In this document: positions 8,259 to 60,556 of the stretch, in pieces | Layout: every line of letters starts with the position of its first letter | Numbering within the stretch: position 1 is the stretch's first letter | Source: Deltaproteobacteria bacterium HGW-Deltaproteobacteria-18 | GTDB lineage: Bacteria > Desulfobacterota > Desulfovibrionia > Desulfovibrionales > Desulfomicrobiaceae | NCBI GenBank assembly: GCA_002841885.1 | Contig: PHBE01000007.1 | Coordinates: 186,001-250,000 of the forward strand | Length of the DNA stretch: 64,000 bases | Reading direction: 5' to 3' | Translations under genes and position numbers: made by a program | The notes under the pieces: model-generated | The model's database searches: none | Seen by the model: the letters and a program-made list of their open reading frames with translations, nothing else | Told to the model about the DNA's origin: nothing

Positions 8259-9635
8259 ATGTCACCATTGATATTTCGCAATCTTGCCCATGATATCGTC
8301 TGGGCGTTGCTGGCCCTGAGTGCGTCTCTGGCCATTCTGGCGCCGTCCGTCTCGTCGCTGTCCGGGGACTTCGAATTCGTTCGGGGAGCCAGCAGCGTTC
8401 TGGTCATCACGATCCTGCCCTCAGTCGCGGTATGGTCGGTATTCTGGTTCACGGGTCGCCGGCCGAGAGCGCCGAAGGCCTTGTATTATCAGGCCGTGGC
8501 GACCTCGCTGAGCATGGCAGCGCTTTATGTCGTGGACATGTCGTCGGGTGTGCTCGGTAGCGAAATCCGCCTTGTCGCGCTGGGGCTTGGCGTCTTTGCC
8601 GGGCTCAAGTCCGCCGAATTCCTGTTCGCCAAGTATCGCCGGGTCATCCCCGGAGTGCTCAAGCGCGTGCTTATCGTCGGGGACGGCCCTCTGGCCGAGC
8701 AGATGGAGGAGTTCATGCTCGCCAACCGGGAGAGTTATGTCATGCTGGGCAGGGTCAGCTGTACGTCGGAGGTGTTTCCCCCGACAGAAGGCAAGGCAGG
8801 GCACGAAACGGCTCCGGACAGGATCGGCAGGTTGTTGCGTCTGGCTCAGAATTTCGGGGCTGACAAGGTCGTGGTCGCCCTGGCCGAGCGGCGGGGCTTC
8901 TTTCCGGTGGAGGAACTCCTCAACTGCAAGATGGCGGGGATCGAGGTAATGGACGCCCCCTCCTTCTACGAAAGCGCGACGCACAAGCTGCTGATCGAAA
9001 ATATTTCGCCCAGCTGGTTCATATTCAGCCACGGTTTCAAGGTGAACTGGATGCTGCGTCTGTGCAAGCGCGTCTTCGACCTGATTGCCGCCAGCGTCGG
9101 TCTGATCTGCCTGTCGCCGCTGCTGCCGCTCATCGCCCTCGCCATCAAGCTGGATTCCCCCGGTCCCATACTTTTCCGGCAGGTCCGGGTCGGCCGGGGC
9201 GACAATCCCTTTGTACTCATGAAGTTCCGCACCATGCGCGAGAATGCCGAAGCAGGGATCGGGGCCGTCTGGTCCCAGAAGGACGATCCGCGCATAACGA
9301 AGGTTGGCAACTTCCTGCGTCGTTCCCGTCTGGACGAGATTCCGCAGTTGCTCAACATCCTCAAGGGCGACATGAGCCTGGTCGGTCCCAGGCCGGAACG
9401 CCCTGAGTTCGTAAGCGAATTGAAGAAAGTGATTCCGTACTATTCAGAGCGCCATTACGTTAAGCCTGGGCTGACAGGGTGGGCACAGGTGCTATATTCA
9501 TATGGTTCTACCATAGAAGATGCAATCGAAAAGCTTCGATATGATATGTATTATATAAAAAATATATCAATAATTCTTGATTTATACATTGTAATAAAAA
9601 CATTCAAAGTCGTATTGCTTGGAAAAGGGAGGTAG
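8259..9635 (+). CDS. XrtA-associated polyprenyl-phosphate sugar-1-phosphate transferase (TIGR03013 type)
   Basis: 458 residues; ATG preceded by GGGAGGAAG. About four N-terminal membrane helices (1-115), a Rossmann-like CoA-binding-fold region (about 125-230, 'KRVLIVGDGPLAEQMEEF'), then a C-terminal bacterial sugar transferase domain (about 265-458) with a membrane helix and the motifs 'ILFRQVRVGRGDNPFVLMKF', 'RRSRLDEIPQLLNILKGDMS' and 'LVGPRPERPEF'. Enzymes of this PF02397 family start repeat-unit assembly by placing sugar-1-phosphate on undecaprenyl phosphate at the inner membrane. This layout is the one seen in XrtA/PEP-CTERM EPS loci. The last 30 codons become AT-rich. It is probably cotranscribed with prsT and the exporter gene 3 bp downstream. 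Confidence 0.9.
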   Translation: MSPLIFRNLAHDIVWALLALSASLAILAPSVSSLSGDFEFVRGASSVLVITILPSVAVWSVFWFTGRRPRAPKALYYQAVATSLSMAALYVVDMSSGVLGSEIRLVALGLGVFAGLKSAEFLFAKYRRVIPGVLKRVLIVGDGPLAEQMEEFMLANRESYVMLGRVSCTSEVFPPTEGKAGHETAPDRIGRLLRLAQNFGADKVVVALAERRGFFPVEELLNCKMAGIEVMDAPSFYESATHKLLIENISPSWFIFSHGFKVNWMLRLCKRVFDLIAASVGLICLSPLLPLIALAIKLDSPGPILFRQVRVGRGDNPFVLMKFRTMRENAEAGIGAVWSQKDDPRITKVGNFLRRSRLDEIPQLLNILKGDMSLVGPRPERPEFVSELKKVIPYYSERHYVKPGLTGWAQVLYSYGSTIEDAIEKLRYDMYYIKNISIILDLYIVIKTFKVVLLGKGR

Positions 9636-9637
9636 AA

Positions 9638-10483
9638 ATGTTGTCTGATACCGGAGTTGTATCCATTGTTTGGAAAAAATGTTTCATGATCAATGTTGCT
9701 GTGCTTATTTTCGCTACGCTACTTCTTGGCGGGACAGGGTTTGCGGAGGAGTACGTCATCGGCGCTGGAGACAGCGTGCATGTCTTCGTGTGGGGTGAGC
9801 CGGACCTGACGGTTCCCGCCCTCGTACGTCCCGACGGCCGTATCTCCCTCCCCGGAGCCGGAGAGATCATGGCCGAGGGCTTGACCCCCGTAGCCCTGCA
9901 AAAGGAGATCGCCAACCGACTCTCGGCCCTGGTCAAGGAACCGATGGTCACGGTGTCCATGGTCGGCATCGAGAACAGCAAAGTTTACATCATCGGCGGA
10001 GGCGTTGTCACGGGCGTTTATCCCCTGAAACAGAAGACTTCGCTCCTGCATCTTTTGGCGGGTATGGATCTGGCCCGGGCCGACCTGCATGGAGCACATG
10101 TCATGCGCGACGGAGTCCGGATGGACAGGGATTTCGACCTTCTGCTGCGCAACGGGGACTTGAAGCAGGACCTTGTCCTCCGCAACAACGACGTCATCGT
10201 CTTTCCGGCCCTGCCTGAACCGTATGTCTATGTCGTCGGTGCCGTGAACACGCCCCAGGCGTTGCCTTACACTGATGGAATGACGGTGCTCGATGCTCTG
10301 CTGGCCTGTGGCGGATTCAACAAATTCGCCAAGAAGAACGACACGGTCGTGGTCCGGCGGGAGAACGGCGCGGAGAAGCGGATCGAAGTACGGGCCCAGG
10401 ATCTGGCCGAGGGCCGCGATTTGTCGCAAAACGTGGTCTTGCACCGCGGAGACTACATCATTGCCGCGGAAAGCTTTTTTTAG
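9638..10483 (+). CDS. Polysaccharide export periplasmic/outer-membrane protein (Wza-like, TIGR03027 type)
   Basis: 281 residues. The N-terminus holds a signal peptide ('INVAVLIFATLLLGGTGFAE'); no lipobox Cys is seen. Next is the polysaccharide export (PES/BexD) domain: 'EYVIGAGDSVHVFVWGEPDL', 'VRPDGRISLPGAGEI', then SLBB-like ligand loops ('YIIGGGVVTGVYPLKQKTSL', 'YVYVVGAVNTPQALPYTDGM'). The ATG at 9638 has GGGAGG upstream; an internal ATG before the hydrophobic stretch is also possible. It would form the exit channel for the polymer together with the Wzz-like protein encoded next (21 bp downstream). Family membership is clear; oligomeric channel formation is known for the family, not shown here. 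Confidence 0.88.
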   Translation: MLSDTGVVSIVWKKCFMINVAVLIFATLLLGGTGFAEEYVIGAGDSVHVFVWGEPDLTVPALVRPDGRISLPGAGEIMAEGLTPVALQKEIANRLSALVKEPMVTVSMVGIENSKVYIIGGGVVTGVYPLKQKTSLLHLLAGMDLARADLHGAHVMRDGVRMDRDFDLLLRNGDLKQDLVLRNNDVIVFPALPEPYVYVVGAVNTPQALPYTDGMTVLDALLACGGFNKFAKKNDTVVVRRENGAEKRIEVRAQDLAEGRDLSQNVVLHRGDYIIAAESFF

Positions 10484-10504
10484 GCAGCAGGAGCGGAGCC
10501 ACAC

Positions 10505-11974
10505 ATGAATCATGAACTTTATCAGCAATTTGAAAGGTACGCGCGGATCTTGCTGCAGCGCAAGCGAATCGTGGTCGTCGTGGCTCTGCTGGTCATGACC
10601 ATGGGTGTTGTAACCAGCTATGTCCTTCCCAGGAAGTACGAGGCGCAGTCTACGGTCTTCATCGAGCAGAGCGTTATCAGCGAACTGGTCAAGGGCATTG
10701 CCACCACGCCGTCCATGGAGGCCAAGATCAAGGTTTTGACCGTGGCCATGCTGAGCAGGGAAACGCTCTCCAAGGTTATGCGCATTCTGGATAAGGATGT
10801 TGAGTTTGATTCCGACATGGCCCGGGAGGCATACATCAAGGATTTGCGGGAGCGGATATCCATCAGGCTGGATGAAAAACGGGGGATTTTCTTCATCTCC
10901 TTTCAGGACAGCGATCCACATTATGCCCGTGATTTCGTCAACACCATCACTCAAGTCTACATCGAATCCAATACGGCCTCCAAGCGGGACGAGTCCCTGG
11001 AAGCGACCCGCTTTTTATCCGAGCAGATAGAGAGCTTCAAGAAGCGCCTCGACATCGTGGAGGAGGAGATCAACCAGTACAAAGCCGAGCATGGCCTTCA
11101 GCTGGCGACGGACGAGACCACCATCCGTTTCGAGATTGCCGATGCCCAGAGAAAGCTGGAGGCCGTTCGGGCGCGCAGGCTTGAGCTTGAGACCAAGTTG
11201 CAGCTCCTGCCTTCCGGAACGGGCCGTTCCGCGCATCTGGCCGATATGGAGCGCCAATTGGCAGCGCTTTTGACGGCCTATACGGACCAGCATCCAAAGG
11301 TGATCCGGCTGCAGGGACAGATCAGGGCGGTGAAAACCAGTCCGTCGGGCGGCATGGTTGGAAATTCGGGGGGCGCGGCCAAAACCCTGATCCAGGCTGA
11401 GATCGATGCCATCGCGCTTCAGGAAACGGCCGGGCTCGCAACCATCGATGAAAAGACAGCGCTTCTGCGCCGGATTCCCGCGCTCCGCACGGGTTTGAAC
11501 GAACTCCTGCGCAAGAAGGAAAACGAGACCCTGATCTACAGCCAGCTCGTGACCCGTTACGGCCAGTCTGAAGTTTCCAAACAAATGGAAATGGAAAACA
11601 AGTCCATGAACTTTCGGGTCGTGGATCCAGCCGTCTTGCCCGACACCGCAGTCAGTCCCCAGCGTGTTTCGATCATGCTCTTGTCGGTCCTGGCTGGAAT
11701 CGGAATCGGCATAGCCGTCATCATGGTGCCATATTTAATGCGCGGATCGGTTGAGAGCCTGGCTGACCTGCGGTCCCTCAACCACCGGGTGCTGGCCGTT
11801 CTGCCATCCATTCCCAAGCCGAAAGAAGAGAGATTGCGCGTGAGAGGGGATCGTATTTTCCTGTCAGGCGCAGCGCTCTATTTTCTCATGCTGGTGAGCA
11901 TTGGAGTCATGGAAGCCCTGGGCAAGTCACCCATCGACGCGCTGTTTGAACGGGCGCGAGACCTTTGGTTGTAG
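10505..11974 (+). CDS. Polysaccharide chain-length determinant (Wzz-like, TIGR03007 type)
   Basis: 489-residue inner-membrane co-polymerase. A first membrane helix lies at about 20-42 ('KRIVVVVALLVMTMGVVTSY'), then a Wzz domain ('KYEAQSTVFIEQSVI') and a long periplasmic coiled-coil section (about 165-350). The usual C-terminal Wzz helix is at about 395-415 ('VSIMLLSVLAGIGIGIAVIM') and an extra hydrophobic segment at about 455-473. It lacks the fused kinase domain, which is the separate gene immediately downstream, as in Gram-positive-style and XrtA loci. It would set polymer length and link the exporter to the tyrosine kinase. Order exporter-Wzz-kinase-ATPase matches other exosortase A loci. 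Confidence 0.88.
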   Translation: MNHELYQQFERYARILLQRKRIVVVVALLVMTMGVVTSYVLPRKYEAQSTVFIEQSVISELVKGIATTPSMEAKIKVLTVAMLSRETLSKVMRILDKDVEFDSDMAREAYIKDLRERISIRLDEKRGIFFISFQDSDPHYARDFVNTITQVYIESNTASKRDESLEATRFLSEQIESFKKRLDIVEEEINQYKAEHGLQLATDETTIRFEIADAQRKLEAVRARRLELETKLQLLPSGTGRSAHLADMERQLAALLTAYTDQHPKVIRLQGQIRAVKTSPSGGMVGNSGGAAKTLIQAEIDAIALQETAGLATIDEKTALLRRIPALRTGLNELLRKKENETLIYSQLVTRYGQSEVSKQMEMENKSMNFRVVDPAVLPDTAVSPQRVSIMLLSVLAGIGIGIAVIMVPYLMRGSVESLADLRSLNHRVLAVLPSIPKPKEERLRVRGDRIFLSGAALYFLMLVSIGVMEALGKSPIDALFERARDLWL

Positions 11975-12010
11975 TTTCGAAACCTGAATACGAGAGGACA
12001 CTTAAAACCA

Positions 12011-12811
12011 ATGAGCAGAATCGAGGACGCACTGGCCAAGGCGGCTGGAATGCAAGCCGGATTTTACAGCAAGGGAAACATGGCCGCAGGGCCCGGCATT
12101 GTCCGGGTACCCATGGGCGAGTCGACCAGCGTCGGCGGAGTCCGTCTGGCCGAGGAGACCATGGTGGTCATCAACGCGCCTCTGTCGCCCATGGCGGAGG
12201 AGTATCGCAAGCTTAAGGAGGCGTTGATCAAGATGACCAAGCGCGAACGTTTCGACAACCTCATTGCCGTGACCAGTTCCACCGCGGGAGAGGGCAAGAG
12301 CATGACCTCTGTCAATCTGGCCGCAAGCCTTGCTGGCGAGTACGACCATACTGTTCTGCTCGTCGATGCCGATCTGCGGCGTCCTGCCGTGCACAAGTAT
12401 CTTGGTCTGGGCGCGTGCAAGGGGCTTTCGGATTGCATGCGTGAAGGCCTGGACGTGGGTGAACTGCTGGTCAAGACAGGTATCGGCAAGCTCTCGGTGC
12501 TGCCAGCGGGCACGCCCACACCCAATCCGGTGGAGCTCTTCTCTTCCGACGCCATGCGCAATCTGTTTCGGGAAATCAAGATACGATACGGGGACCGCTA
12601 CATCATAGTCGACACCCCTCCGGTGCTGCCCTTTGCCGAGACGCGATCCATCGCGAGCATCGTCGACGGTGTGATTCTGGTCGTGAAGGAGGGGATGCCA
12701 AGCCTGGATCAGATCGAGGAGGCCATCGAAGCCCTGGATCAGAAGGTCTTGGGCATTGTCTACAACGGGGCGCATCTGCAGAGCAGGTCGTCCTACTATT
12801 ACGCGGAGTAG
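12011..12811 (+). CDS. XrtA-associated tyrosine autokinase (BY-kinase)
   Basis: 266 residues. The BY-kinase signatures are all visible: Walker A 'SSTAGEGKSMTSVNLA' (about residue 95), Walker A' 'VLLVDADLRRP', Walker B 'YIIVDTPPVLPFAE', and a short C-terminal tyrosine cluster 'SSYYYAE'. These cytoplasmic kinases autophosphorylate the tyrosine tail and act with the Wzz-like partner to control polymer length and export. The partner is encoded directly upstream and the ExeA-like ATPase begins 9 bp downstream. A GAGAGGA lies about 11 bases before the ATG, slightly far. Matches the TIGR03018 type by context and motifs. Confidence 0.9.
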   Translation: MSRIEDALAKAAGMQAGFYSKGNMAAGPGIVRVPMGESTSVGGVRLAEETMVVINAPLSPMAEEYRKLKEALIKMTKRERFDNLIAVTSSTAGEGKSMTSVNLAASLAGEYDHTVLLVDADLRRPAVHKYLGLGACKGLSDCMREGLDVGELLVKTGIGKLSVLPAGTPTPNPVELFSSDAMRNLFREIKIRYGDRYIIVDTPPVLPFAETRSIASIVDGVILVVKEGMPSLDQIEEAIEALDQKVLGIVYNGAHLQSRSSYYYAE

Positions 12812-49169: not shown

Positions 49170-49246
49170 TGGCGCGCCAGGGAGGACTCGAACCCCCGAC
49201 CGATTGCTTAGAAGGCAATTGCTCTATCCGCCTGAGCTACTGGCGC
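49170..49246 (-). tRNA. tRNA-Arg (anticodon TCT)
   Basis: 77 nt including encoded CCA. Read on the minus strand: acceptor GCGCCAG with CTGGCGC, D stem GCTC/GAGC, anticodon stem ATTGC/GCAAT with loop CTTCTAA (anticodon TCT at plus 49210-49212), T loop TTCGAGT, discriminator G, then CCA. It decodes AGA/AGG arginine codons. Its 5' half is duplicated at 60513-60556, so the gene is the integration site of the downstream element, and its 5' half and promoter now come from the element. Confidence 0.97.
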
Positions 49247-49249
49247 GCA
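49206..49249. repeat. attL: 44-bp direct repeat in tRNA-Arg
   Basis: Identical for 44 bases to 60513-60556. It covers the anticodon loop through the 5' end of the tRNA plus three flanking bases, so the crossover took place in or near the anticodon loop. It ends on the tRNA side exactly where the anticodon loop begins. Confidence 0.9.
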
Positions 49250-49404: not shown

Positions 49405-50493
49405 TTACTGTGCTTGCGCGCGGGCCTGTTCGGTTGGCTTGGAAAGGCCGAGCAGGTTCGCCGAAGCCTTGGCAATGATGTTCGACTGAGTGACACCTTT
49501 GAAGCTGTGAAGGTATAGAGTCGTCGTCATCGGGTTCGTATGTCTGAGTACCTTTTGTATTGTGGCGATCGACTCGCCTCCATGCAGCATGAGGGTTGCC
49601 GTCAAGTGCCTGATCTCATGGGCAGTGAATCTCTCAATCTCTGCTTTCTTGGCAATGCCTGTAAAGAACTTCGGACGGTTGTAGAACTTGGTTCCCGTCC
49701 GAGGACTGATAAAGACAAACTCCTTCAAGCCCGTGTCGTATCGCTGTTGCTGTAGTAGGTCGACAAGGTTTGCGCTGACGCAGACCCAATCAGCTTCGCG
49801 GCCACTTTTGCGTTTTCCCGTCCAAAGCCTCAGTGAGGAATTGGCGAGGTCGACATCCGACCATCTGAGGCTCAGTATCTCACGAAGGCGTCCGCCCGTC
49901 TCAAAGTATGTCAGCAACATCAGGCGATCCTGAGGGTCACTGCAGGCATCCAGAGCCTTCCTGAAATCGTCCAGAGTTGGCACATGGCGCTCTTTCTTGT
50001 CTACTCTGAAGGGTTTAATCTTCACGAATGGGTTCGAACACGAGAGCATCTCGTTTTCGATGGCCCAGTAGCAAGCGCTCTTGAGGTGTCGGAGGTCTCT
50101 GTTTGATGAGAACGCAGAGATATCCTGGGCAACCCGCTGCAAGTGCCGTCTCAGTGATACCTGGCTTAAATCATCAACATGCGTCTTCGAGGGAATGCTC
50201 TCAAAGAGCCTGCGGAAGGCCAATCGCTTTGAGATCAAACTGGTCTTCACCATGTTTCTTGCTTCAAGGTCACGTAGATATTCGTCGTGAAGTTCCTGTA
50301 TCGTCGTGATCTTGTCTGGGCTTGCACTGCGGGCAATCTCGTCGAGCAGTTCCTTTCGGATAACCTCGTCGAGAAGTTTAGCCTCTCTCTTGGTGTTTGG
50401 TTCGGCCCTTCGTTCTCGTGATCTGCCTTGAACTTCAGCTCGTCCAAACCATTCTTTCTTCCCAGTCTTCTTGTTGATACGTTGTCTTGGCAT
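49405..50493 (-). CDS. int: Tyrosine-type integrase of the tRNA-Arg element
   Basis: 362 residues. N-terminal arm-binding-like basic part ('MPRQRINKKTGKKEWFGRAE'), a SAM-like core-binding domain (about 65-165), then the catalytic domain: Arg202 in 'FETGGRLREILSLRW', 'HEIRHLTATLMLHGG' with His292/Arg295, His318 in 'KVLRHTNP' and the nucleophile Tyr327 in 'TTTLYLHSFKG'. This is the complete active-site set of tyrosine recombinases. It lies next to attL and points toward the tRNA. It should integrate and excise the element by site-specific recombination at tRNA-Arg. The start overlaps by one base (TAATG) with the HTH gene upstream, so the two are translationally coupled. Confidence 0.92.
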   Translation of the reverse strand: MPRQRINKKTGKKEWFGRAEVQGRSRERRAEPNTKREAKLLDEVIRKELLDEIARSASPDKITTIQELHDEYLRDLEARNMVKTSLISKRLAFRRLFESIPSKTHVDDLSQVSLRRHLQRVAQDISAFSSNRDLRHLKSACYWAIENEMLSCSNPFVKIKPFRVDKKERHVPTLDDFRKALDACSDPQDRLMLLTYFETGGRLREILSLRWSDVDLANSSLRLWTGKRKSGREADWVCVSANLVDLLQQQRYDTGLKEFVFISPRTGTKFYNRPKFFTGIAKKAEIERFTAHEIRHLTATLMLHGGESIATIQKVLRHTNPMTTTLYLHSFKGVTQSNIIAKASANLLGLSKPTEQARAQAQ

Positions 50494-50738
50494 TAGTTTA
50501 GCCCTTCCTTAAATCGCTCCACTATTTCTTTTTCAATGAAGCGAATATGGGCACCAGCTTTCTTTCCGCCAAGCTTTCGCCAATGCCTATACACCCACTG
50601 AGGGGAGACCTGCAACCATTCTGCAACCGTGGGAACGTCGACTAATTTACACTCACCTAGTACGCTGCCACCGTGATTGAGTTTTGCACCTTCTGCTGCG
50701 GTGCTGAATTTCATTCCTTCCATCAAAACATTTCTCAT
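50493..50738 (-). CDS. Excisionase-like helix-turn-helix protein
   Basis: 81 residues. The C-terminal half 'LVDVPTVAEWLQVSPQWVYR' followed by 'HWRKLGGKKAGAHIRFIEKE' is a MerR/Xis-type winged helix-turn-helix, as used by excisionases and directionality factors. The N-terminal part is unremarkable. Its stop overlaps the integrase ATG by one base (TAATG). Position and size fit a recombination directionality factor for the integrase. Whether it directs excision or represses integrase is not decidable from sequence. Confidence 0.7.
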   Translation of the reverse strand: MRNVLMEGMKFSTAAEGAKLNHGGSVLGECKLVDVPTVAEWLQVSPQWVYRHWRKLGGKKAGAHIRFIEKEIVERFKEGLN

Positions 50739-51510
50739 TGGTCCGAAGTAAAAATTTCATTGCCCTAACCCGTCCTCTTCAGGGATAATTGTGTTTGTCA
50801 TCAAATAAAATACTGAATCTTCCTTCAGTACTAATGAACTGAACTTGTCATCCATATCATAATCTTATGTTTTGTCAAAAATTATCATTGGCTTGCAATG
50901 CATGTCTGCGGTCTCATGCAAAGTGTTCTGCGGAGAGATGGCTTCGCACTGGGCGTAGAGCACTACGGGCGTTGCCAGAGTCTGTTCTCGTGGAGCAGCG
51001 AGGCGCGCCCGTCTTGCTGTGAGGGATTGAGATGCGCTGCGATCTGCCAAGAGGCTCAGTTCTACACAAGCGTTGCGCCTCACAGACAAAAAGAAGATTG
51101 AGGCAGGTGTGTTTCTGGGTCTCTTTATTCTTGTCTGTCTGTGTGCTCTTTCAGTTGGGCTACCCACTACCCTCTCTCTTCATCTCTCATTAGGGGCAAT
51201 AATCGTGATTATATCAATGAAATAAGTGTGTTGCGATATTGCGGGGCTCACCTTCGATGTGGTCGCCAAGGATTAAGTCGTCGCTCTCAAAAAGCGGGCA
51301 ACAATGTTATCTAAGATCGTAATATCAGATAGTTGGATACTTAGCTTTCCTGCGCCAATAAACGTTGGTAGCGGGCAATAATTGTCCTGCGACGTCGGAG
51401 GATGGCATATGTGACGTTGACCAGCTATGTGGGTGACAAAGCGGGCAACTATTCTCTCAGTCCGCTCCAGCAGCCAAAAAGAAAGGCCACCTGTAGGCGG
51501 CCTATCATCT
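50739..51510. other. Non-coding region between the HTH and polymerase-like genes
   Basis: 772 bp without a convincing gene; a 100-codon minus-strand frame at 50865-51167 has no ribosome site and no recognisable domain. It contains a set of GGGCAAYWAT-type repeats (51194-51456), described separately, and could hold an origin or regulatory region. Confidence 0.55.
51194..51456 (+). repeat. Iteron-like direct repeats (GGGCAATAAT type)
   Basis: Core GGGCAATAAT at 51194, with copies at 51296 (GGGCAACAAT), 51373 (GGGCAATAAT) and 51443 (GGGCAACTAT); three are preceded by AGC (AGCGGGCAAY). Spacings are 102, 77 and 70 bp. A reverse-orientation copy lies in the polymerase-like gene at 52012-52027. They sit in non-coding DNA just beyond that gene, so they may bind an initiator or recombinase. 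Confidence 0.5.
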
Positions 51511-53022
51511 TTACTCTCGCTCCCACGGCAGGACTCGACCAAGCACCTCCGCAGAAGCTTCATCCATTGCCTTGCCCAGTAGGGCTGCGTCCTGCTCTCT
51601 GACTACGAAGCCGTCGAATATTGGGATGCATGGTATATCCAGGCTCATCAGCTTTTGTAGGACGCTCTCTGCTATCTCAGAGTCATAGTACTGCGCCTTT
51701 GTGCCGAACGCCGAGCAGAAATACTGGTTGATGGCGCTGTGCTTTGCTACGAACGCTGCGATGTAAGCGTTGATGTCTTTTGTTGTCAGATTCCATCCTT
51801 CCTTGGAGCTATGTTTCCTCATCGCAAGCTTCGCGCTCTTCATGTCCTTGCAGTTGATGACAATGAGAGCCATCGTTTTTGCGATCTCGCGGCGAAAGTC
51901 TTGAACATCCAACACATAGAGGTCGCCAGTCGGAGGCATCAGTCCCTGGAGTGCGTAGCAGATGTGGAGGTGAATAGCCTTGAAGTCGAGCGTGACAGTC
52001 GGGTGCCCACCCATTATTGCCCGCTTTCGCCATTTCTTGCGAATGCATTGGAGCCAGTGACCGTAGCGCCGTCCACCTTCTTGGAGTGATTCGTTATTGA
52101 AGACTCGGTATGTTCGCACACGATTCCGTGCAGCTATCGCGTATGCCTCTGAACATGCCGCGATAACGTTTGCAGTGTGATCGTCCAGTTCTGACTCCTT
52201 GAGCAGGCTGGCAGCATCCGCTCTCCTTCTCAGTCCTTCCTCGATTGCGCAAAGCGTGATGTCGTCGCCGTTGTCATCCTTGATCCACACATCGATCTTC
52301 GCGACATAGTCGGTTATCTTTTGCGATGCCGCTAGAATCTGATCATACTCGCCACTGAACCTAGGCGGTGCAACTATCCGTTTACTGCTATCCTTGATGA
52401 TCACGGCTGGCTTGCTGGCAGCGAGATCACTATGATCGACATTGGACCATGTGAGCCAAGCTAATACGTTTGGACTGAGGCGATATCTTGAGGCCAATCC
52501 CTTCCCGCTGCTGCTTCCATCAGCCCGTTCAGACTCCACTAGGTCAGCCTTCGCCATAAGGTCGATAAGCTCCAGCAGGTACTTATGGGAGACGGGGAGT
52601 CTGTAGGCCTTGAGTTGCGGGTATCGGTTGAACTTTCTGAAGTAGCAGACCCACGGCCTATTCTCATAGAATTTTTCGAATCCACCATTGTGCAGCGCGT
52701 ATTCAAGCGACGTCGATCCGCACGAGTCCGCAGCCATGAGTCCGTTTGCCATTATGGCCTCAAGGGTTCCGCGCTGCTTAGCGACGTCTGAGGGGCGCTC
52801 AGGACGCTTTAGTCCATGCTTCTCAAGGATGCTGAGAATGTTATTAATGACGATATCAACTTGTTTGTCTGTGACAGGACTGTTGTTCAACGCCGCCAAG
52901 ATCGGCCTCTCTGCTCTGAGGCGCTCGATCTCAAGTTTATTCTTCTGGTAAACGCGCTGTCTGTCGATGCCCAACTCTGGACAGAAGTGGATGTCCTGCC
53001 CTTTCACTCCACCAACGGCCAT
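51511..53022 (-). CDS. Putative single-subunit polymerase (divergent PolA/T7-RNAP-like)
   Basis: 503 residues. Not assigned to a named family by sight, but the C-terminal half carries a polymerase-like set in order: motif A 'TLDFKAIHLHICYALQG' (Asp346; compare PolA DYSQIELR), motif B 'RREIAKTMALIVIN' with Arg378-x3-Lys382-x7-Asn390 (the spacing of the O-helix R-x3-K-x7-Y of PolA and T7 RNAP), and motif C 'IPIFDGFVV' with Asp470 (compare the HD motif). The region before motif A, 'GGRRYGHWLQCIRKKW', is also conserved-looking. The N-terminal half is mixed, without an exonuclease signature. The start overlaps the zinc-finger gene by one base (TGATG). It may be a replicase or primase of the element (inference). 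Replication initiator without polymerase activity is an alternative. Confidence 0.5.
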   Translation of the reverse strand: MAVGGVKGQDIHFCPELGIDRQRVYQKNKLEIERLRAERPILAALNNSPVTDKQVDIVINNILSILEKHGLKRPERPSDVAKQRGTLEAIMANGLMAADSCGSTSLEYALHNGGFEKFYENRPWVCYFRKFNRYPQLKAYRLPVSHKYLLELIDLMAKADLVESERADGSSSGKGLASRYRLSPNVLAWLTWSNVDHSDLAASKPAVIIKDSSKRIVAPPRFSGEYDQILAASQKITDYVAKIDVWIKDDNGDDITLCAIEEGLRRRADAASLLKESELDDHTANVIAACSEAYAIAARNRVRTYRVFNNESLQEGGRRYGHWLQCIRKKWRKRAIMGGHPTVTLDFKAIHLHICYALQGLMPPTGDLYVLDVQDFRREIAKTMALIVINCKDMKSAKLAMRKHSSKEGWNLTTKDINAYIAAFVAKHSAINQYFCSAFGTKAQYYDSEIAESVLQKLMSLDIPCIPIFDGFVVREQDAALLGKAMDEASAEVLGRVLPWERE

Positions 53023-53489
53023 CAGCGAGCCTCGTTGTCGTATCCGAGGAAGTTGGCAACGCCAGTGGTGCGCCTACCTCGTGGGCGCTTGCCGAGGCGG
53101 TAAGGCCAAATAGGACAGTCATCCACCTCGCAAGCCACTATGTCCTTGAGCTTTTCACTGCATTCTCTGCACTTGGCCCTGATCGAACGCAGGGGACGCG
53201 GCGCAAGCTCGGATCGTTTCCCCATGCGTAGCGAATTAAGCGGACAGTGAGTTGAGGGACACAGCCTGACTTCCTTTGGTGATCCGTTACAACACCACAG
53301 GCACTTCTGGCGTATGGCCCGATACTCCGAGGATGGCACTTCCTGGTCAAACCCCCCGCATAAATCGGCACATTTTTGAACGTTAGCCTCTTCGGCATGG
53401 TTCAGGTCATCCTTGGTTGTGTCGTTGGAAAATATGCCGATATTCGCAGGTATTTCGAACGCGTGATGTTCACATGTAAACACTTCCAT
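53022..53489 (-). CDS. Small zinc-finger protein with two Cys repeats
   Basis: 155 residues. Two tandem units have the pattern C-x2-C ... C-x4-5-C-P-[LI]: 'IRQKCLWCCNGSPKEVRLCP' followed by 'STHCPLNSLRMGKR', and 'IRAKCRECSEKLKDIVACEV' followed by 'DDCPIWPYRLGKR'. This C4 ribbon is seen in small phage and integrative-element proteins, probably binding DNA or a partner. It overlaps both neighbours by one base (TGATG at each end), so HTH, zinc-finger and polymerase-like proteins form one translationally coupled unit. Function unknown; a replication accessory role is a guess. Confidence 0.65.
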   Translation of the reverse strand: MEVFTCEHHAFEIPANIGIFSNDTTKDDLNHAEEANVQKCADLCGGFDQEVPSSEYRAIRQKCLWCCNGSPKEVRLCPSTHCPLNSLRMGKRSELAPRPLRSIRAKCRECSEKLKDIVACEVDDCPIWPYRLGKRPRGRRTTGVANFLGYDNEAR

Positions 53490-53728
53490 CAGCGCGACTC
53501 CTCGACGCCGTTATCCTGCTCAAGGAGTTGAATGACGACGTGTCCAGGAATGCGCATGCTTCTGGGGCCTGGGCGAACAGCGATTAGCTTGCCGCTGTCG
53601 ATCCAGCGACGAACTGTCTTGGTTGACACGCTCAAGATGGCTGCGACTTGGTTAATAGTGTAGAGGCGTGCGACCTCGACGTTGCCCAATGCAAAGATGG
53701 TCTGGGTGATGTTTGAACTGATTTCCAT
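53489..53728 (-). CDS. MerR/excisionase-type DNA-binding protein
   Basis: 79 residues. 'LYTINQVAAILSVSTKTVRR' with 'WIDSGKLIAVRPGPRSMRIP' is the helix-turn-helix and wing of the excisionase/AlpA-type family. It is the first gene of the unit ending in the polymerase-like gene; its TGA overlaps the zinc-finger ATG. It probably controls this unit or the element's excision. Plus-strand bases ahead of its start are gene-free to 54572. Assignment to regulation rather than recombination is open. Confidence 0.7.
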   Translation of the reverse strand: MEISSNITQTIFALGNVEVARLYTINQVAAILSVSTKTVRRWIDSGKLIAVRPGPRSMRIPGHVVIQLLEQDNGVEESR

Positions 53729-54572: not shown

Positions 54573-55271
54573 TTACGCTGATCGCTCGGTCTGCTCCAGG
54601 CGCTTGAGGACTCGCTGTAGTTGAAGAAGCGACCACTGGCCTCCACGGGCAGTCGTGATTCCCTTCTCGTTGAGGGCGGCTACCATCTGGCGCTGTGTCA
54701 TGCCGCATGTTTTGAACATCAAGAGGAAGAACCGCATACTCTCTGCAAACTCGTTAGCCTTGGCTATGCGCGGTTCGTTGAGCGTGCTGGACAGTTGGGG
54801 GTTGCCCAGCCTCTTGCCGTTCCGCTTGGCCTCGGCCAGTGCAGCCTTGGTTCGCTGGCTGATCCGCTTGGCCTCGTCCTCGGCCACCGCCGCCAGGATA
54901 TGGATCGTGAGTGGTGTGGCGCTCGGCATGTCACAGCACAGGAAATCTACCTTACTCTCCATGAGGCTGGAGACGAAGTGTACGTTACGGGCAAGGCGGT
55001 CCAGCTTGGCGATGAGCAGCGTGGCCTTATGTCGTTTGGCGTAGGCGATGGCTTGCTGGAGCTGGGGACGTTTGGCCAGCGCATTGCTACCCTTGCCCGT
55101 CTCCACCTCGGTGAACTCGGCCAGGAGCTGCCAGTCCCCGCCGTTGAGGTACTGGCGAACGGCTTCCTGCTGGGCCTGGAGTCCAAGTCCTGACTGGCCC
55201 TGCTTCTGTGTGGACACTCGATAGTAACTAGCGAAACGGCCCGTGTGCTCTGTGTTTGCGGTCATCTTCAT
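54573..55271 (-). CDS. Serine recombinase (resolvase/invertase family)
   Basis: 232 residues from the ATG at 55271, which follows AGGAGGGCT; an open frame continues upstream for 39 codons without a site. 'GRFASYYRVSTQKQGQSGLG' gives the nucleophile Ser20; further family motifs are 'LLAEFTEVETGKGSNALAKR', 'LLIAKLDRLARNVHFVSSLM' and 'AAVAEDEAKRISQRTKAALA'. The C-terminus holds a resolvase-type HTH ('MTQRQMVAALNEKGITTARG'). Sites it might use include the 9-bp inverted repeat at 54541-54579 and small hairpins upstream (55372-55397, 55425-55445). It could resolve dimers of the element or switch DNA. No associated transposase is seen. Confidence 0.85.
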   Translation of the reverse strand: MKMTANTEHTGRFASYYRVSTQKQGQSGLGLQAQQEAVRQYLNGGDWQLLAEFTEVETGKGSNALAKRPQLQQAIAYAKRHKATLLIAKLDRLARNVHFVSSLMESKVDFLCCDMPSATPLTIHILAAVAEDEAKRISQRTKAALAEAKRNGKRLGNPQLSSTLNEPRIAKANEFAESMRFFLLMFKTCGMTQRQMVAALNEKGITTARGGQWSLLQLQRVLKRLEQTERSA

Positions 55272-55666
55272 AGCCCTCCTGTGGTGCTTGACTACGTTTC
55301 TATATGCTCGTTTGTTAGTAGTCAAAGAGCCAGCAGCGGGCGCTTGTCGTGTCTGTCCGCCAAACGATGAAGCCCTGCCGATCTTCACCAGCAGGGCCTC
55401 GGCCTTCGCCTGTATGTAGTGGCTAGGTCGATGGCGTTCCGACCTGGCCGATGATGGTGTGCTATGAGCCTCCCTCTCGACGCCTACCTACCCCCATGGC
55501 GGGACAATGCCGCCCCCACCCGTGCCACCCATAGTATCTTTTGTGTCCTCGCATTTTTCGTTCCAGACACTTTGTATTTTCAGGCACGTAATCCTTGTGT
55601 AACTGACCCTCATTAGGGGTGCCATTCACGGCATCTTGCGTTTACACGAAATATTTTACACCCCTA
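55272..55666. other. Gap between recombinase and membrane protein
   Basis: 395 bp. No gene. Two short hairpins lie upstream of the recombinase: GCCCTGC/GCAGGGC (55372-55397) and AGGTCG/CGACCT (55425-55445), which could be its binding sites. Beyond 55500 it is mixed sequence with no feature recognised. Confidence 0.4.
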
Positions 55667-56749
55667 TTATAACATCAAATATTCATAAAAACTTATATCA
55701 TCGTATGGCATTTTTAGTTTCTCTGATTCAGTTAAAAGATAATTGCAAAGCTGTTCGTCATCATGAAAAATACGTTCTATACCTTTTTCGTCAGTTAAAA
55801 AATAGCAATACCGTGTTTTGATTAAATTAAAGCCGTTACTTTTGAGGATGTCTTGTATTTTTTCATATTCCTTAATAATAATACTTATTTTATCTCTCCG
55901 CACCTTTTCTGGATTCTCAATTTTTCTTTTTAATAATTGTTGTTTATTATTCTGTTCAATATCTCTCGTCTTTGCATCTTTTATCCTGCCCACCCTTTCT
56001 TTGATATACTTATACTTAGCTTTATTCTCATCACCCTCGCACAATGCCATACATTTAGCCCATAGTGCCTTGTCTTGATTGTCTTCGTCTACTTCATTTG
56101 TTGCTTGTAAATACAGTTCGTCTTCGTTAATTACTTCAGAGTGCTTATTGTTATTCATGATTATTTCGCTGTGTTCCACTGAATCCTGTTTGTGTATCTG
56201 GATAGGCATGTCAACCTGTTTCTCTGGCATATTGTGTGATATATTTACAGGATTACTATATAAAATCTTGTCATTATATTGATTTTTATTAATTATTTGT
56301 TCATAATAATATGTATTTTTAACTCTTATAGATTTATTTAAATACAATGTCCAACATAAAGCGCCAATAAAATTTATTATAGTTTCTTTTAAACCAAAAA
56401 TCTGGAGTCCATCATCAAATAAGCTGTGCATTAAAATTATAATGAATATCGATAATACAGGTCCAGTAGTCCACAGAGTAAATATGGCTAATTCAACACT
56501 TGATTTTTCGTGTTTATAATAAAGTCTATAAGCACTTAAAAGTCTTATACTGAGAGAAGCTAAAGATAAAATATAAACCCATTGTTTAAAGTTTTGCCAT
56601 GTATCGAAAGATTTTAAGCCAGGATATAGGTGCTCTGCAATGCTAAACTGGCCTAATGATGCAATAGTTCCTATAATGCTAAGAACGCTTAAACTTAAAA
56701 CAAGAAACAATAACCAGCCTTTCACTCCGACGAGTTCTTTGTCGCTCAT
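55667..56749 (-). CDS. DUF2569-like membrane protein with charged cytoplasmic tail
   Basis: 360 residues, AT-rich. The start 'ELVGVKGWLLFLVLSLSVLS' matches the GWL opening of DUF2569 proteins, and four membrane helices fall within about 1-145. The remaining 215 residues are charged and Lys/Glu/Asn-rich, with likely coiled-coil segments and no recognised domain ('ALWAKCMALCEGDENKAKYK', 'KRKIENPEKVRRDKISIIIK'). This tail is far longer than in a usual DUF2569 protein. It diverges from the HNH gene across 463 bp. Function unknown; it may be part of the cargo encoded here. Confidence 0.55.
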   Translation of the reverse strand: MSDKELVGVKGWLLFLVLSLSVLSIIGTIASLGQFSIAEHLYPGLKSFDTWQNFKQWVYILSLASLSIRLLSAYRLYYKHEKSSVELAIFTLWTTGPVLSIFIIILMHSLFDDGLQIFGLKETIINFIGALCWTLYLNKSIRVKNTYYYEQIINKNQYNDKILYSNPVNISHNMPEKQVDMPIQIHKQDSVEHSEIIMNNNKHSEVINEDELYLQATNEVDEDNQDKALWAKCMALCEGDENKAKYKYIKERVGRIKDAKTRDIEQNNKQQLLKRKIENPEKVRRDKISIIIKEYEKIQDILKSNGFNLIKTRYCYFLTDEKGIERIFHDDEQLCNYLLTESEKLKMPYDDISFYEYLML

Positions 56750-57212
56750 TGATAGCCTCTCTCAAAGAGATAATTTTCCAGTTTCTATAAACTCACATTA
56801 TCCCATTAATCAAGAATCTTTACTGTCATACACTGCACGCCTCGCCAATCCTCTCCTGCCTATCCTTATAAGTTCTCACCATCGACAAGACATGTTTGGT
56901 CGAAGAGGTATGACGACGCGCCGTCAGCATATTCGCGCACAAGAATAACCGCTAGCATGGGCAGACTCACTACTCTAGAAGGGGCATGCTGGACCACCAC
57001 CCCATGCCCCGTGCCGCCTATTATCCCAACCCTTACGCATTATGCTTCGCAGAACTGTTTTGGAAACAGAAATTGTTACATCTTTACCATCCTCGTAGTT
57101 TCGAACCATAAAATTTGTATTCTCATGTCACGAAACTCTTGTGTCATACACCGCCAGCAGGATAATGGCGGGCACTGATGGCACCATTTTCTCAGAGGAC
57201 GGAGGAGCGGAT
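56750..57212. other. Divergent intergenic region
   Basis: 463 bp between the minus-strand DUF2569-like gene and the plus-strand HNH gene. It holds a hairpin GGGGCATG (56981-56988) / CATGCCCC (57003-57010) and no clear gene. The HNH ORF can be extended upstream to 57141, but the ribosome site points to 57213. Confidence 0.5.
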
Positions 57213-58265
57213 ATGCGTAATTGGAGCGAGGGGGAGATACAATCCGCCGTCGATGACTACTTCGCAATGCTAATTAAAGAAATGGACGGGGTAGAGTATG
57301 TAAAAAGTCATCATTGGACTGCACTCATGGGTAAACTTAATGAGCGTTCCAAGGGGGCAGTCGAATTAAAGTACCAAAATATTAGTGCTATCTTGCATGA
57401 GGAAGGGTGGCGGTTCGTTATGGGCTACAAGCCCAGGGGCAATTATCAGAAGGCTCTCAGGGGCCATGTCCTCCGATACGTGCATGACCACGGCCTAGAT
57501 CTCCGCCAGACACCCGACAAGGAGGATGTCTTCTCCTGGACCATCCTTAGCGACGGTGAAGCCATCAAGCGCGTGGATAAGTCCGCTATTGTGTATCACG
57601 GCACGGGAGTACCCAAGCAGGTGCTGCCGTTTTTCGGTATTGACGACGCCAATCCGCCAAAGTCGCTTCGTGTGATCCATCGAGGCAAGGAGATAGACCT
57701 ACGGGTCAGCGCCGATCCATTCCAGCGTGTTCGGTTGTTCTGGCCCAAGGCGCTGTCAGAAGACATGGCCCACACCTTCCCTGCCGAAACTGCGATGCTC
57801 AAGGCTGGCGAGGAACAAGGCAGAGGTGCGATCATCATGCACTTCCGCAAACTTGCGGCCTCCTTCTTTGAGGTTGAGTGTTACGGGGCAGGGGTAGTAG
57901 CGGAAGAAACCGTGCCTGACGAGTACATGGCACAAGTTGAAGGCAAGGCTGTCAGGGTTGAATATCTCCGACGGGTTCGCAGTGCGATCAACAGGCAGAA
58001 GGCTATTGAGTTTCACGGAACGGCCTGTGCGGTCTGCGGCTTCGACTTTGAAAAGACCTACGGCGACCTGGGGCGCGGATTCATAGAGGTTCATCACCTG
58101 AATCCACTAGGCGAATCCGAGGAGGAGGGCGAGGTAAATCCTGCGACCGACCTGGTTCCTCTATGTGCCAATTGCCATCGGATGGTCCATCGGGGAGAGG
58201 TGGGAGTGATCACGCCTGACGAATTGATAAGAATTGTGCAAAATGCAAGTAAGGACATTTTATGA
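57213..58265 (+). CDS. HNH endonuclease with extra N-terminal domains
   Basis: 350 residues from the ATG at 57213 (GGAGGAGCGGAT upstream). An N-terminal domain 'NWSEGEIQSAVDDYFAMLIK', 'LNERSKGAVELKYQNISAIL' and 'GYKPRGNYQKAL' resembles a domain often fused to HNH nucleases in defence or restriction proteins. A middle region of unknown fold follows. The HNH motif is at about 265-330: Cys pair 'CAVCGFDF', 'FIEVHHLNPLGE' and 'VPLCANCHRMVHRG'. HNH enzymes cut DNA at a metal site. Immediately downstream, 77 bp apart, lies the KAP NTPase gene on the same strand, so the pair may act together. Target not known. Confidence 0.78.
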   Translation: MRNWSEGEIQSAVDDYFAMLIKEMDGVEYVKSHHWTALMGKLNERSKGAVELKYQNISAILHEEGWRFVMGYKPRGNYQKALRGHVLRYVHDHGLDLRQTPDKEDVFSWTILSDGEAIKRVDKSAIVYHGTGVPKQVLPFFGIDDANPPKSLRVIHRGKEIDLRVSADPFQRVRLFWPKALSEDMAHTFPAETAMLKAGEEQGRGAIIMHFRKLAASFFEVECYGAGVVAEETVPDEYMAQVEGKAVRVEYLRRVRSAINRQKAIEFHGTACAVCGFDFEKTYGDLGRGFIEVHHLNPLGESEEEGEVNPATDLVPLCANCHRMVHRGEVGVITPDELIRIVQNASKDIL

Positions 58266-58341
58266 AATACACAGGCACAATAGAGCTGCCCATGAGGCGT
58301 CAGGAAATTTCTAAAATTTGTATTATGCCAACTGTGGTGTT

Positions 58342-59832
58342 ATGATGGAATATTTAAATTTGGGTGATAATTGGGCTATCGACAAGATGGAACGAAAGGA
58401 AGAGTCTGGCTTTTTAAGCAATTACCTAATTAATAAATATAAAAATTTTCAAAATATAGGTATAAAAAAAACATTTGTATTGAATATTAATGCTGACTGG
58501 GGATTTGGAAAGACATACTTATTAAAAAACTGGGCTGACGATTTGGCAAGAAACGGACATCCTGTCGTTTATTTTGATGCATGGGAAAATGATTTCTCAA
58601 ATGAACCTTTAGTTGCATTTATATCAACTATTAATCAGCAACTTTCTCAATATTTTGAATCTAATTCAGAAAATGAAGATCATGTAAAAATAAAAAATAA
58701 GCAATTAGAGTGGTTTAATAAAGGAAAAAAGTTGCTCGTATCAATTTCTCCAATATTATTTAATGTTGTTTCAAAAAAAATAGCAGGTTTTACTGTTAGC
58801 CAAATATGTGATTTATACAATGAGTCATGTTCTGAAGAATATAAAGAAGATGATGGTGTTTCACGTAAAGACGCTAAAGAAGTTGTATCGTCTATATTAT
58901 CCAAGGCAGCACTTGATGCTTTAGAGTCGCACTGTTCAGCAAAGGAGACGATCAATGAGTTCAAAGAAAAATTAAAAAGCGTTGTTGATTGCATTGAAGA
59001 ATCAGATAATTTCAAAATTCCAATATTTGTTTTTGTAGATGAACTTGATCGATGCAGGCCAAATTATTCGATAGAGTTGCTTGAGAATATAAAACATTTA
59101 TTTGGTGTAGAAGGAGTAATTTTTGTTGTTGGGACTGCGTCCTCACAGTTGTCTGAATCAATAAGAAAGATTTATGGACATAATTTTGATAGCCCAACAT
59201 ATCTAAAGCGCTTTTTCGATCAAACTTATACACTAAATGCTCCAGGAAGGGGTAGTTACGCAGAATATCTGTTTTTTTTATTTGGTCTAAATAACAGGGA
59301 GAATTTGGTCTCACTTCTCAATAAAGATTTCTATCAAGAAGAAGATCTTAATAGTGTAATATTTTATGTCATTTGTGAATATTTTAATGTTTCATTAAGA
59401 GATATGTATCAATATTGTGCGATAATTGATGGAATTTCTCTTTCTTCTGGATCAAAAAAATTACATACAGGATTGCTTACAATATATTTAATATACAGGT
59501 CGCTATTTAACGATGAATATTCGTCTTTTAATCAAAATATTAATAATAAAATTAGAGATATAAATAGTTCTGGAAGGATTTTGCCAAAAATAAAAACAAT
59601 GAGGATTAAAGATTTTTATAATTCGGTAAGAGATGAAATATCTGTCGGTGATTACATTTCATTATATTTACAAATCATTGAATTAAAACATTCAGCAATA
59701 ATAGATCAATATAACAATTTTAATTCTGGCATTGATTTAAGACAGAGTATTTTAGGATCGCTAATATCTAAAGAGTTTGAACAATTTTATAATTATAAAA
59801 AGCTTATTGAGCACGCAGGGAGACTTTCATGA
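58342..59832 (+). CDS. KAP-family P-loop NTPase
   Basis: 496 residues from the ATG at 58342 (or the adjoining ATG at 58345); the frame opens upstream at a TTG but without a site. Walker A 'NADWGFGKTYLLKNW' (about 47-61), 'PVVYFDAWENDFSNEPLVAF' and Walker B 'PIFVFVDELDRCRPNYSIEL' with a following 'LLENIKHLFGVEGVIFVVGT' are the KAP signature set. A moderately hydrophobic segment ('LLVSISPILFNVVSKKIAGF') lies in the middle, the position where KAP proteins often carry membrane insertions, but here it is short. KAP members include PifA, which excludes phage T7. AT-rich, unlike the host chromosome. A defence role with the HNH gene is inferred. Confidence 0.8.
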   Translation: MMEYLNLGDNWAIDKMERKEESGFLSNYLINKYKNFQNIGIKKTFVLNINADWGFGKTYLLKNWADDLARNGHPVVYFDAWENDFSNEPLVAFISTINQQLSQYFESNSENEDHVKIKNKQLEWFNKGKKLLVSISPILFNVVSKKIAGFTVSQICDLYNESCSEEYKEDDGVSRKDAKEVVSSILSKAALDALESHCSAKETINEFKEKLKSVVDCIEESDNFKIPIFVFVDELDRCRPNYSIELLENIKHLFGVEGVIFVVGTASSQLSESIRKIYGHNFDSPTYLKRFFDQTYTLNAPGRGSYAEYLFFLFGLNNRENLVSLLNKDFYQEEDLNSVIFYVICEYFNVSLRDMYQYCAIIDGISLSSGSKKLHTGLLTIYLIYRSLFNDEYSSFNQNINNKIRDINSSGRILPKIKTMRIKDFYNSVRDEISVGDYISLYLQIIELKHSAIIDQYNNFNSGIDLRQSILGSLISKEFEQFYNYKKLIEHAGRLS

Positions 59833-60512: not shown

Positions 60513-60556
60513 GCTTAGAAGGCAATTGCTCTATCCGCCTGAGCTACTGGCGCGCA
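60513..60556. repeat. attR: truncated copy of the tRNA-Arg 5' half
   Basis: 44 bp identical to 49206-49249. It has the tRNA's 5' end through anticodon loop but no 3' half. In the uninterrupted chromosome this was the genuine 5' half of tRNA-Arg. It marks the right end of the element (unit length 11,307 bp). Confidence 0.9.

Follow-up and report, generated by a model that had tools for sequence, protein, structure and literature searches.

A divergent A-family polymerase, a candidate primase-polymerase, in an integrative element of a Desulfomicrobiaceae bacterium

The integrative element and its genes

The window is a 64,000-nucleotide stretch of contig PHBE01000007.1 of Deltaproteobacteria bacterium HGW-Deltaproteobacteria-18. 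A polymerase gene in this window sits in an 11,307-bp integrative element within tRNA-Arg(TCT), whose ends are marked by exact 44-bp direct repeats spaced 11,307 bp apart (Table 1). A search with the neighbouring folC gene detected folC in 15 of the 16 genomes of the genus (i.e. with the own genome counted). Among the 16 folC loci of the other congeneric genomes, the joined flanks of the element were recovered as a single BLAST piece across the junction in seven and an intact tRNA-Arg(TCT) was present beside folC in eight. The repeats and the uninterrupted congener loci indicate that the element inserted precisely at a position that is unoccupied in congeners, in agreement with the 11-kb integrative element of the preliminary description of this DNA.

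Table 1. Features of the integrative element and of its polymerase gene (positions in the window)
Feature	Position	Strand	Evidence
tRNA-Arg(TCT), target of integration	49170..49246	-	ARAGORN
att repeat, tRNA side, in 5' half of tRNA-Arg(TCT)	49206..49249		exact repeat; empty site in congeners
tyrosine integrase	49405..50493	-	PF00589 E 4e-22; phrog_1 E 1e-49
HTH_17 excisionase/AlpA-like protein	50493..50738	-	weak HTH_17 E 1e-4, under curated cut-off; overlaps integrase start
AGCGGGCAAYWAT, three copies (51293, 51370, 51440), downstream of polymerase gene	51293..51452	+	weak
A-family (TV-Pol/divPolA2-type) polymerase, 503 aa	51511..53022	-	ORF, phrog_4756, AlphaFold/Foldseek/VIA fold, conserved residues
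motif C: Phe469-Asp470-Gly471	51610..51618	-	conservation
O-helix: Arg378-x3-Lys382-x7-Asn390; Asn at Y766/Y639 position by register	51853..51891	-	conservation
motif A: catalytic Asp346; His351 at sugar-gate position (E710 of PolA)	51970..51987	-	alignment, conservation
AGCGGGCAAYWAT, fourth copy, inverted, inside polymerase gene	52013..52025	-	sequence search
Arg318, beta-hairpin Arg, aligned with GR of PolA motif TATGR	52069..52071	-	hhalign alignment
Cys-rich (predicted zinc-binding) 155-aa protein	53022..53489	-	weak zf-C4pol E 7e-4, under cut-off
HTH_17 (AlpA/MerR-like) regulator	53489..53728	-	PF12728 E 3.5e-12
serine recombinase (resolvase/invertase type)	54573..55388	-	PF00239 E 6e-26
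DUF2569 membrane protein, cargo	55667..56749	-	PF10754 E 5e-8
HNH endonuclease, cargo, candidate defence protein	57141..58265	+	PF01844; PADLOC PDC-S36 E 3e-29, residues 26-125 only
KAP-family NTPase, cargo, candidate defence protein	58318..59832	+	PF07693 E 5e-33; PADLOC PDC-S20 E 4e-88
att repeat, folC side	60513..60556		exact 44-bp repeat; empty site in congeners

The genes for the HTH_17 regulator, the Cys-rich protein (i.e. the Zn protein) and the polymerase are tightly packed and joined by one-base overlaps (TGATG), such that one base is common to the HTH stop and the start of the Zn gene, and another to the stop of the Zn gene and the polymerase start. An overlap of the form TAATG links the Xis-like and integrase genes. 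These overlaps make translational coupling likely, as had been proposed for the HTH, Zn and polymerase genes. The adjacent HNH and KAP NTPase genes (57141-59832) form a candidate defence pair, in a region of lower G+C content (about 33-45%). A Pfam scan of nine element proteins detected neither a helicase nor a relaxase, and no Fis was found among the element proteins scanned.

Copies of AGCGGGCAAYWAT downstream of and within the polymerase gene could conceivably be putative origin or protein-binding sites. None of 100 shuffles reached this repeat, a figure that overstates its significance because AGCGGGCAAYWAT was chosen after the copies had been seen, and a 12-mer with one mismatch was reached by 7 of 100 shuffles. 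Exact 10-mer repeats in the window were equalled by 8 of 40 shuffles. Those within 2 kb of the gene exceeded all 40 shuffles in one (i.e. L123) of 32 chosen loci of the family; with the other 31 not above all shuffles, origin iterons or polymerase promoters were rejected as a family trait.

Relationships and predicted fold of the polymerase

The polymerase gene encodes 503 aa from an ATG start in an intact frame. Reading back from the DNA confirmed Asp346, Arg378, Lys382, Asn390, Phe469 and Asp470, and thereby the three motifs (Asp346; Arg378-x3-Lys382-x7-Asn390; Asp470) from which a polymerase had originally been recognised. Sequence searches of Pfam, NCBIfam and the PDB with the window protein or its family gave nothing meaningful. 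DNA_pol_A (PF00476) matched none of 50 members at E<=0.1, so that kinship to the A-family superfamily rests on fold and motifs. A copy of the host PolA was rejected as an origin of the gene, as the sole PF00476 match in the host genome is a separate gene. No nuclease domain was detected by Pfam in the protein or in 50 members, and the absence of an exonuclease part was thus correctly noted at the outset.

A single significant match, to phrog_4756 (E 3e-43; function unknown), was obtained for the window protein in PHROGs, and the same group was matched by all 50 aligned family members. Weak matches among these 50 members were to phrog_414 (three members) and phrog_2051 (one), both labelled 'RNA polymerase', and to phrog_5995 (one), labelled 'DNA polymerase'. 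When AUR84708, the divPolA2 representative, was searched as a single sequence, a profile devoid of phage sequences aligned with it over columns 44-438 of 445 (E 1e-42), and the 50-row profile found this protein in its whole phage record (E 9e-49). Judged by these matches, the protein belongs to phrog_4756, together with a published divPolA2 representative, and not to a new family.

With the window protein as query, matches were obtained in 125 phage records, in 3 plasmids and, with the own genome counted, in 13 of 150 genomes of relatives, and a profile search gave matches in 36 of 348 genomes of the class. No match was obtained in any other genome of the genus (15 genomes), a distribution typical of mobile genes. 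In a tree of 71 sequences (i.e. 63 non-redundant members and eight named phage or plasmid sequences), viral and bacterial members were mixed with 12 label changes, at least four of them forced by well-supported branches, with every IMG/VR contig labelled 'virus', although integrated elements may be among them. The sister of the window protein is a protein of G089 (support 98/97), whose locus also carries a homologue of the Zn protein.

Key residues are strongly conserved. R318, R378 and K382 were kept in 63/63 non-redundant members, D346 and D470 in 62/63 and the fingers Asp D367 in 61/63, these counts having been made after removal of three fragments (L051, L054 and L056) and nine sequences at >=95% identity; one of the eight added phage or plasmid sequences has Lys at R318. 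A Pseudodesulfovibrio MAG (L068) has tandem members at 9284-10624 and 10870-12207, of which the first has lost both catalytic Asp (to Gly and Glu), and is possibly an inactive partner subunit, and the second keeps both. An IMG/VR contig (L046, 1-11746) contains three copies (>99% identical) of a ~3.4-kb unit in which a small integrase accompanies one family member; this is either a tandem element of very small size or an artefact of assembly.

An AlphaFold model built on a 50-row alignment was mostly of pLDDT >90 for residues 300-503. At E<=1e-3, Foldseek matched the model to 33 PDB chains, every one of them from an A-family DNA polymerase. With VIA, the apicoplast DNA polymerase, a PolA (Z 13.6, rmsd 3.7, 236 aligned residues), was tied with the yeast mitochondrial RNA polymerase (Z 13.5), and aligned lengths were 226-272 residues among the best 50 matches listed. 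In the model, D346 is near the end of strand 340-347 and D470 in the turn between strands 466-468 and 471-475. This topology, and the fact that one L068 copy has lost the two Asp together, agree with a shared site for D346 and D470. R318 lies in a hairpin of strands 305-308 and 316-320, and helices 256-276, 281-289 and 292-299 of the thumb region were modelled at low confidence (block-mean pLDDT ~50-63). The top eleven Foldseek matches in BFVD were viral proteins of 400-450 residues (E 3e-18 to 5e-13), including a barbavirus protein named DNA polymerase; below rank eleven the matches were weaker and several were named DNA or RNA polymerase. For the N-terminal region, Foldseek gave no match at E<=1e-3, and its best fold matches, to winged-helix regulators, were at noise level (Z<=6.2). 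Modelled fold and motifs together identify the protein as an exonuclease-free A-family right-hand polymerase. The initial assignment to PolA/T7-RNAP-like right-hand enzymes is thus upheld by the model, by the 33 Foldseek chains and by the VIA matches to A-family enzymes.

Active-site residues and nucleotide choice

Positions E710, Y766 and E883 of PolA are given in Klenow numbering. E710 and Y766 help PolA to keep out ribonucleotides; E883 lies outside that ribonucleotide gate and is a second mark of DNA polymerases. The family was aligned to 20 host PolA sequences by hhalign, at a probability of 6.8%, and this alignment was used solely to line up R318 (on the GR of TATGR), D346 (on D705) and His351 (on E710). 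Because the motif DYSQIELR used to select these 20 sequences itself specifies E710, and one sequence out of 21 had been omitted, the residues were recounted without motif selection and were E/Y/E in 21/21 host PolA. Asn390 and Gly471 were placed by their distance from Lys382 and Asp470, without a structural alignment.

The family differs from PolA at all three positions, with His at the E710 place in 55/63 members, Asn at the Y766 place in 59/63 and Ser at the E883 place in 59/63. Among all 71 members the combination was H/N/S in 57, E/Y/E in two, E/N/E in one and other in 11, including H/N/G in the window protein. An E/Y/E gate is carried by the phage branch of AUR84708 and ICP1 gene 0500. 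T7 RNAP (883 aa) has Gly542, Tyr639 and Ser813 at these places. Asn at the YG position had been singled out in the preliminary description; it is present, and being the family norm it is no oddity of this protein. The Phe before the catalytic Asp, also singled out there, is indeed unusual (5/71 members). Replacement of E710 and Y766 by His and Asn and of E883 by Gly (Ser in most relatives) leads us to predict ribonucleotide use by this phrog_4756-type family, such that primers made by it would probably contain ribonucleotides.

The gate differs between isolates of phage ICP1. In reference ICP1 (L149, NC_015157, 1124-4223), ORF98-102, including a Mom-like gene, lie between gp97 and gp103 and ORF100 is a family member with an H/N/A gate. 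A different family member, with an E/Y/E gate, is located between gp97 and gp103 in isolate 2017_Dha_AD (L157, MW794156, 1101-2805). A literature search on the function of ORF100/gp100 gave no ICP1 paper. Swaps between H/N/S and E/Y/E within one family, and even between family members at one ICP1 locus, would offer a clean test of the choice between RNA and DNA building blocks.

Loss of the sugar gate in the family and Ser rather than Glu after the catalytic Asp, as in T7 RNAP, would also be expected of a single-subunit RNA polymerase transcribing the genes of the element or phage from dedicated promoters. The yeast mitochondrial RNA polymerase is as close in fold as the DNA polymerases, the four weak 'RNA polymerase' matches in PHROGs point the same way, and this option is left open for divPolA2 in the sections available of Yutin et al. 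(PMC11348598). We regard it as unlikely, given that all 33 PDB chains matched by Foldseek are DNA polymerases, that one member weakly matches the 'DNA polymerase' phrog_5995 and that the protein, at 503 aa, is much smaller than T7 RNAP, to whose N-terminal domain the modelled N-terminal region bears a likeness at noise level (Z 5.5). Additionally, no promoter-like repeat stands out upstream of the element genes, the clearest repeat being downstream of and inside the polymerase gene, and the 31 chosen loci lacking an exact repeat above all shuffles also argue against dedicated promoters.

The DNA polymerases among the best Foldseek matches and the DNA-polymerase gate of the AUR84708/ICP1 gene 0500 branch would instead suit a primer-dependent DNA polymerase, active in gap filling, repair or second-strand synthesis after entry of single-stranded DNA, with primers supplied by the host primase. 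A precedent is CCPol, which in the sections available merely extends primers when its partner MP is absent (PMC7581432). This function is quite improbable for the window protein, as H/N/S replaces the dNTP gate in 57 of 71 members and the nine element proteins scanned include no relaxase.

Genomic context, proposed function and known systems

Gene neighbourhoods connect the family with recombinases. An integrase was present within 7 kb in 9/12 relatives' loci and an integrase or resolvase in 11/12; for loci on genome contigs, an integrase or resolvase was found within 10 kb in 15/18, three of which repeat relatives' loci. An integrase baseline of ~4% was derived from 172 Pfam matches in 21 genomes (roughly 67 Mb), and is not strictly alike to the linkage counts, for which an iterated profile was used. 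As iterated profiles were applied to six-frame ORFs, some host recombinases may be included in the integrase and resolvase counts. In one locus (L126), tRNA-Ser(GGA) is present at 605-691 and 12649-12740, ~12 kb apart, on either side of an integrase, a resolvase and the polymerase; this region is probably another such element. Among the 25 most frequent of 74 Pfam families (137 neighbours, 18 loci), AAA_25 occurred twice and DEAD once, and the 25 most frequent of 79 families for 89 of 90 neighbours in nine further loci contained no D5-type helicase. KilA-N was found in 2/89 of these neighbour proteins. The family of the Zn protein had matches in 78/150 related genomes, versus 13/150 for the polymerase, and a homologue was near the polymerase in 2/12 relatives' loci; the Zn protein was thus rejected as a fixed partner of the polymerase family.

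HsdM-type and HsdR-type type I restriction proteins are present among relatives' neighbours (2/89 each), candidate defence genes (PDC-S20 and PDC-S36) are carried on the element, and ICP1 isolates differ at one locus by an exchange of family members in which a Mom-like gene is also involved. The polymerase could on these grounds be cargo with an anti-phage or anti-defence function, as an A-family counterpart of defence reverse transcriptases, and defence has been raised for PolA-SSB pairs in the part of Rice 2023 available (PMC10061031). We consider this very unlikely: neither the polymerase nor the Zn protein had a PADLOC match at E<=0.01, the polymerase gene lies with the recombination and regulation genes in one half of the element, and what stays constant across the family is linkage to recombinases.

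The reading that we favour, and hold to be reasonably probable, is that of a primase-polymerase of an 11.3-kb satellite-like integrative element that uses a host helicase. It is preferred because the gene occupies the primase slot of a PICMI-like layout and because an integrase is present in 9/12 loci against the ~4% expected. The integrase, with the AlpA-like HTH factor, would excise the element from tRNA-Arg; the polymerase would lay short primers on a single-stranded template, and perhaps extend them; and the host helicase and replicase would then copy the element circle. As no linked helicase was found on the element or in the neighbour families listed, a host helicase must serve in this scheme. 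The N-terminal region, possibly a winged helix, and the co-expressed Cys-rich protein, which may bind the template, are likely template-binding or specificity parts and would take the place of the zinc domain or SSB partner found in other primases. Joint Asp loss in one L068 copy is expected if D346 and D470 act together. Against this reading count the phage relatives, which lie beside regular replicative polymerases, in variable places and sometimes as 2-3 paralogues, as would suit an accessory role (PMC11348598, in the sections available), and the few members that keep a DNA-polymerase-like gate. The published case for priming by TV-Pol was built mainly on linkage to a D5 helicase, a linkage not seen for this family, and this too counts against it, as do the scans that gave no linked helicase, the rarity of the Zn protein beside relatives (2/12 loci), the weak origin-like repeats and the lack of a family match in Ma-LMM01, a named TV-Pol holder. 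The unusual replication or primase system suggested in the preliminary description is plausible as a role; that it is a stand-alone oddity finds no support, given the earlier accounts of TV-Pol (2008, PMC2579912) and, in the sections available, divPolA2 (2024, PMC11348598).

Almost every primase known so far is of the DnaG or the AEP family, and the A-family CCPol-MP is an exception according to the available part of PMC10061031. Our more speculative and rather doubtful proposal is that the present family constitutes a third kind of RNA-capable primase, with an A-family palm in which E710, Y766 and the post-Asp Glu are traded for His, Asn and Ser and with a separate zinc-finger subunit for template recognition, common to integrative elements and large phages. 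divPolA2 and the bacterial TV-Pol with an N-terminal domain would then form a single family, of which the E/Y/E phage branch (AUR84708, ICP1 gene 0500) would represent a DNA-polymerase-like variant. Should the present family prime as well, mobile elements and phages far beyond Bacillota would have A-family priming as a general tool.

The closest described relatives are divPolA2 and TV-Pol. divPolA2 is a phage branch for which the choice between DNA and RNA polymerase was left open (Yutin 2024, PMC11348598); the divPolA2 section of that paper covers phages alone and its available text names TV-Pol once, in the Background. In the literature searched, the two terms co-occur solely in that paper and its preprint. 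From the available description, divPolA2 resembles the window protein in lacking an exonuclease and in having an N-terminal globular region of unclear kind, but is from a lytic phage and not an integrative element, and AUR84708 has an E/Y/E gate in contrast to H/N/G. TV-Pol comprises polymerases predicted to prime in elements with resolvases and integrases (Iyer 2008, PMC2579912). As here, TV-Pols are nuclease-free proteins of 400-600 aa linked to gamma-delta resolvases and/or lambda-type integrases, and the window protein shares with the subset having an N-terminal domain the two palm Asp, the hairpin Arg, the fingers Asp and RxxxK. KilA-N among the neighbour proteins of the family is a further point in common with that subset. 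Three of four structural features given for TV-Pol (PMC2579912) are thus present, plus the recombinase context, the modelled thumb helices being of low confidence. TV-Pol is linked to a D5 helicase, unlike the window element. Ma-LMM01, a named holder of a TV-Pol, gave no match to the family profile, and its TV-Pol gene was not located by a PF00476 search. The case for membership in TV-Pol is accordingly one of features and context, no direct sequence match to any named member having been obtained.

CCPol, placed among the TV-Pols, has been proven to act as a primase-polymerase together with MP, its partner (Bebel 2020, PMC7581432). Like the window protein, CCPol-MP of SCCmec and the PolA-SSB pairs are A-family polymerases carried on elements and encoded next to a small partner protein and a recombinase (PMC7581432, PMC10061031). 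In the sections available, CCPol keeps E710 and F762, primes with dNTPs and has a preferred priming site downstream of its operon (PMC7581432). The window protein, by contrast, has His351 and Leu386 at the residues corresponding to E710 and F762. The partner of CCPol is an OB-fold protein, whereas the neighbour in the window is Cys-rich with a weak zf-C4pol match, and the CCPol operon has a helicase, with none among the nine element proteins scanned here. A replication protein of the virophage Zamilon was a far weaker fold match in BFVD (rank 41, E 4e-3) than the best eleven, and V13 of the virophage Sputnik is fused to a D5 helicase (PMC2579912).

In layout the element resembles PICMIs and other phage satellites, as a small site-specific island with an integrase, an AlpA-like HTH_17 protein, a gene in the primase slot and defence cargo. 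PICMIs, in the sections available of PMC10803314, all have an integrase, AlpA and a primase, and deletion of prim lowers copy number. PICMI prim is a DUF3987/DUF5906 protein, unlike the A-family polymerase of the window, and for the window element no Fis was found among the proteins scanned and no helper phage is known. No mention of a family-wide H/N/S gate was found in the available text of the papers cited here. Compared with these systems, what stands out in the alignments is this unusual family-wide active-site pattern, H/N/S in most members and H/N/G in the window protein.
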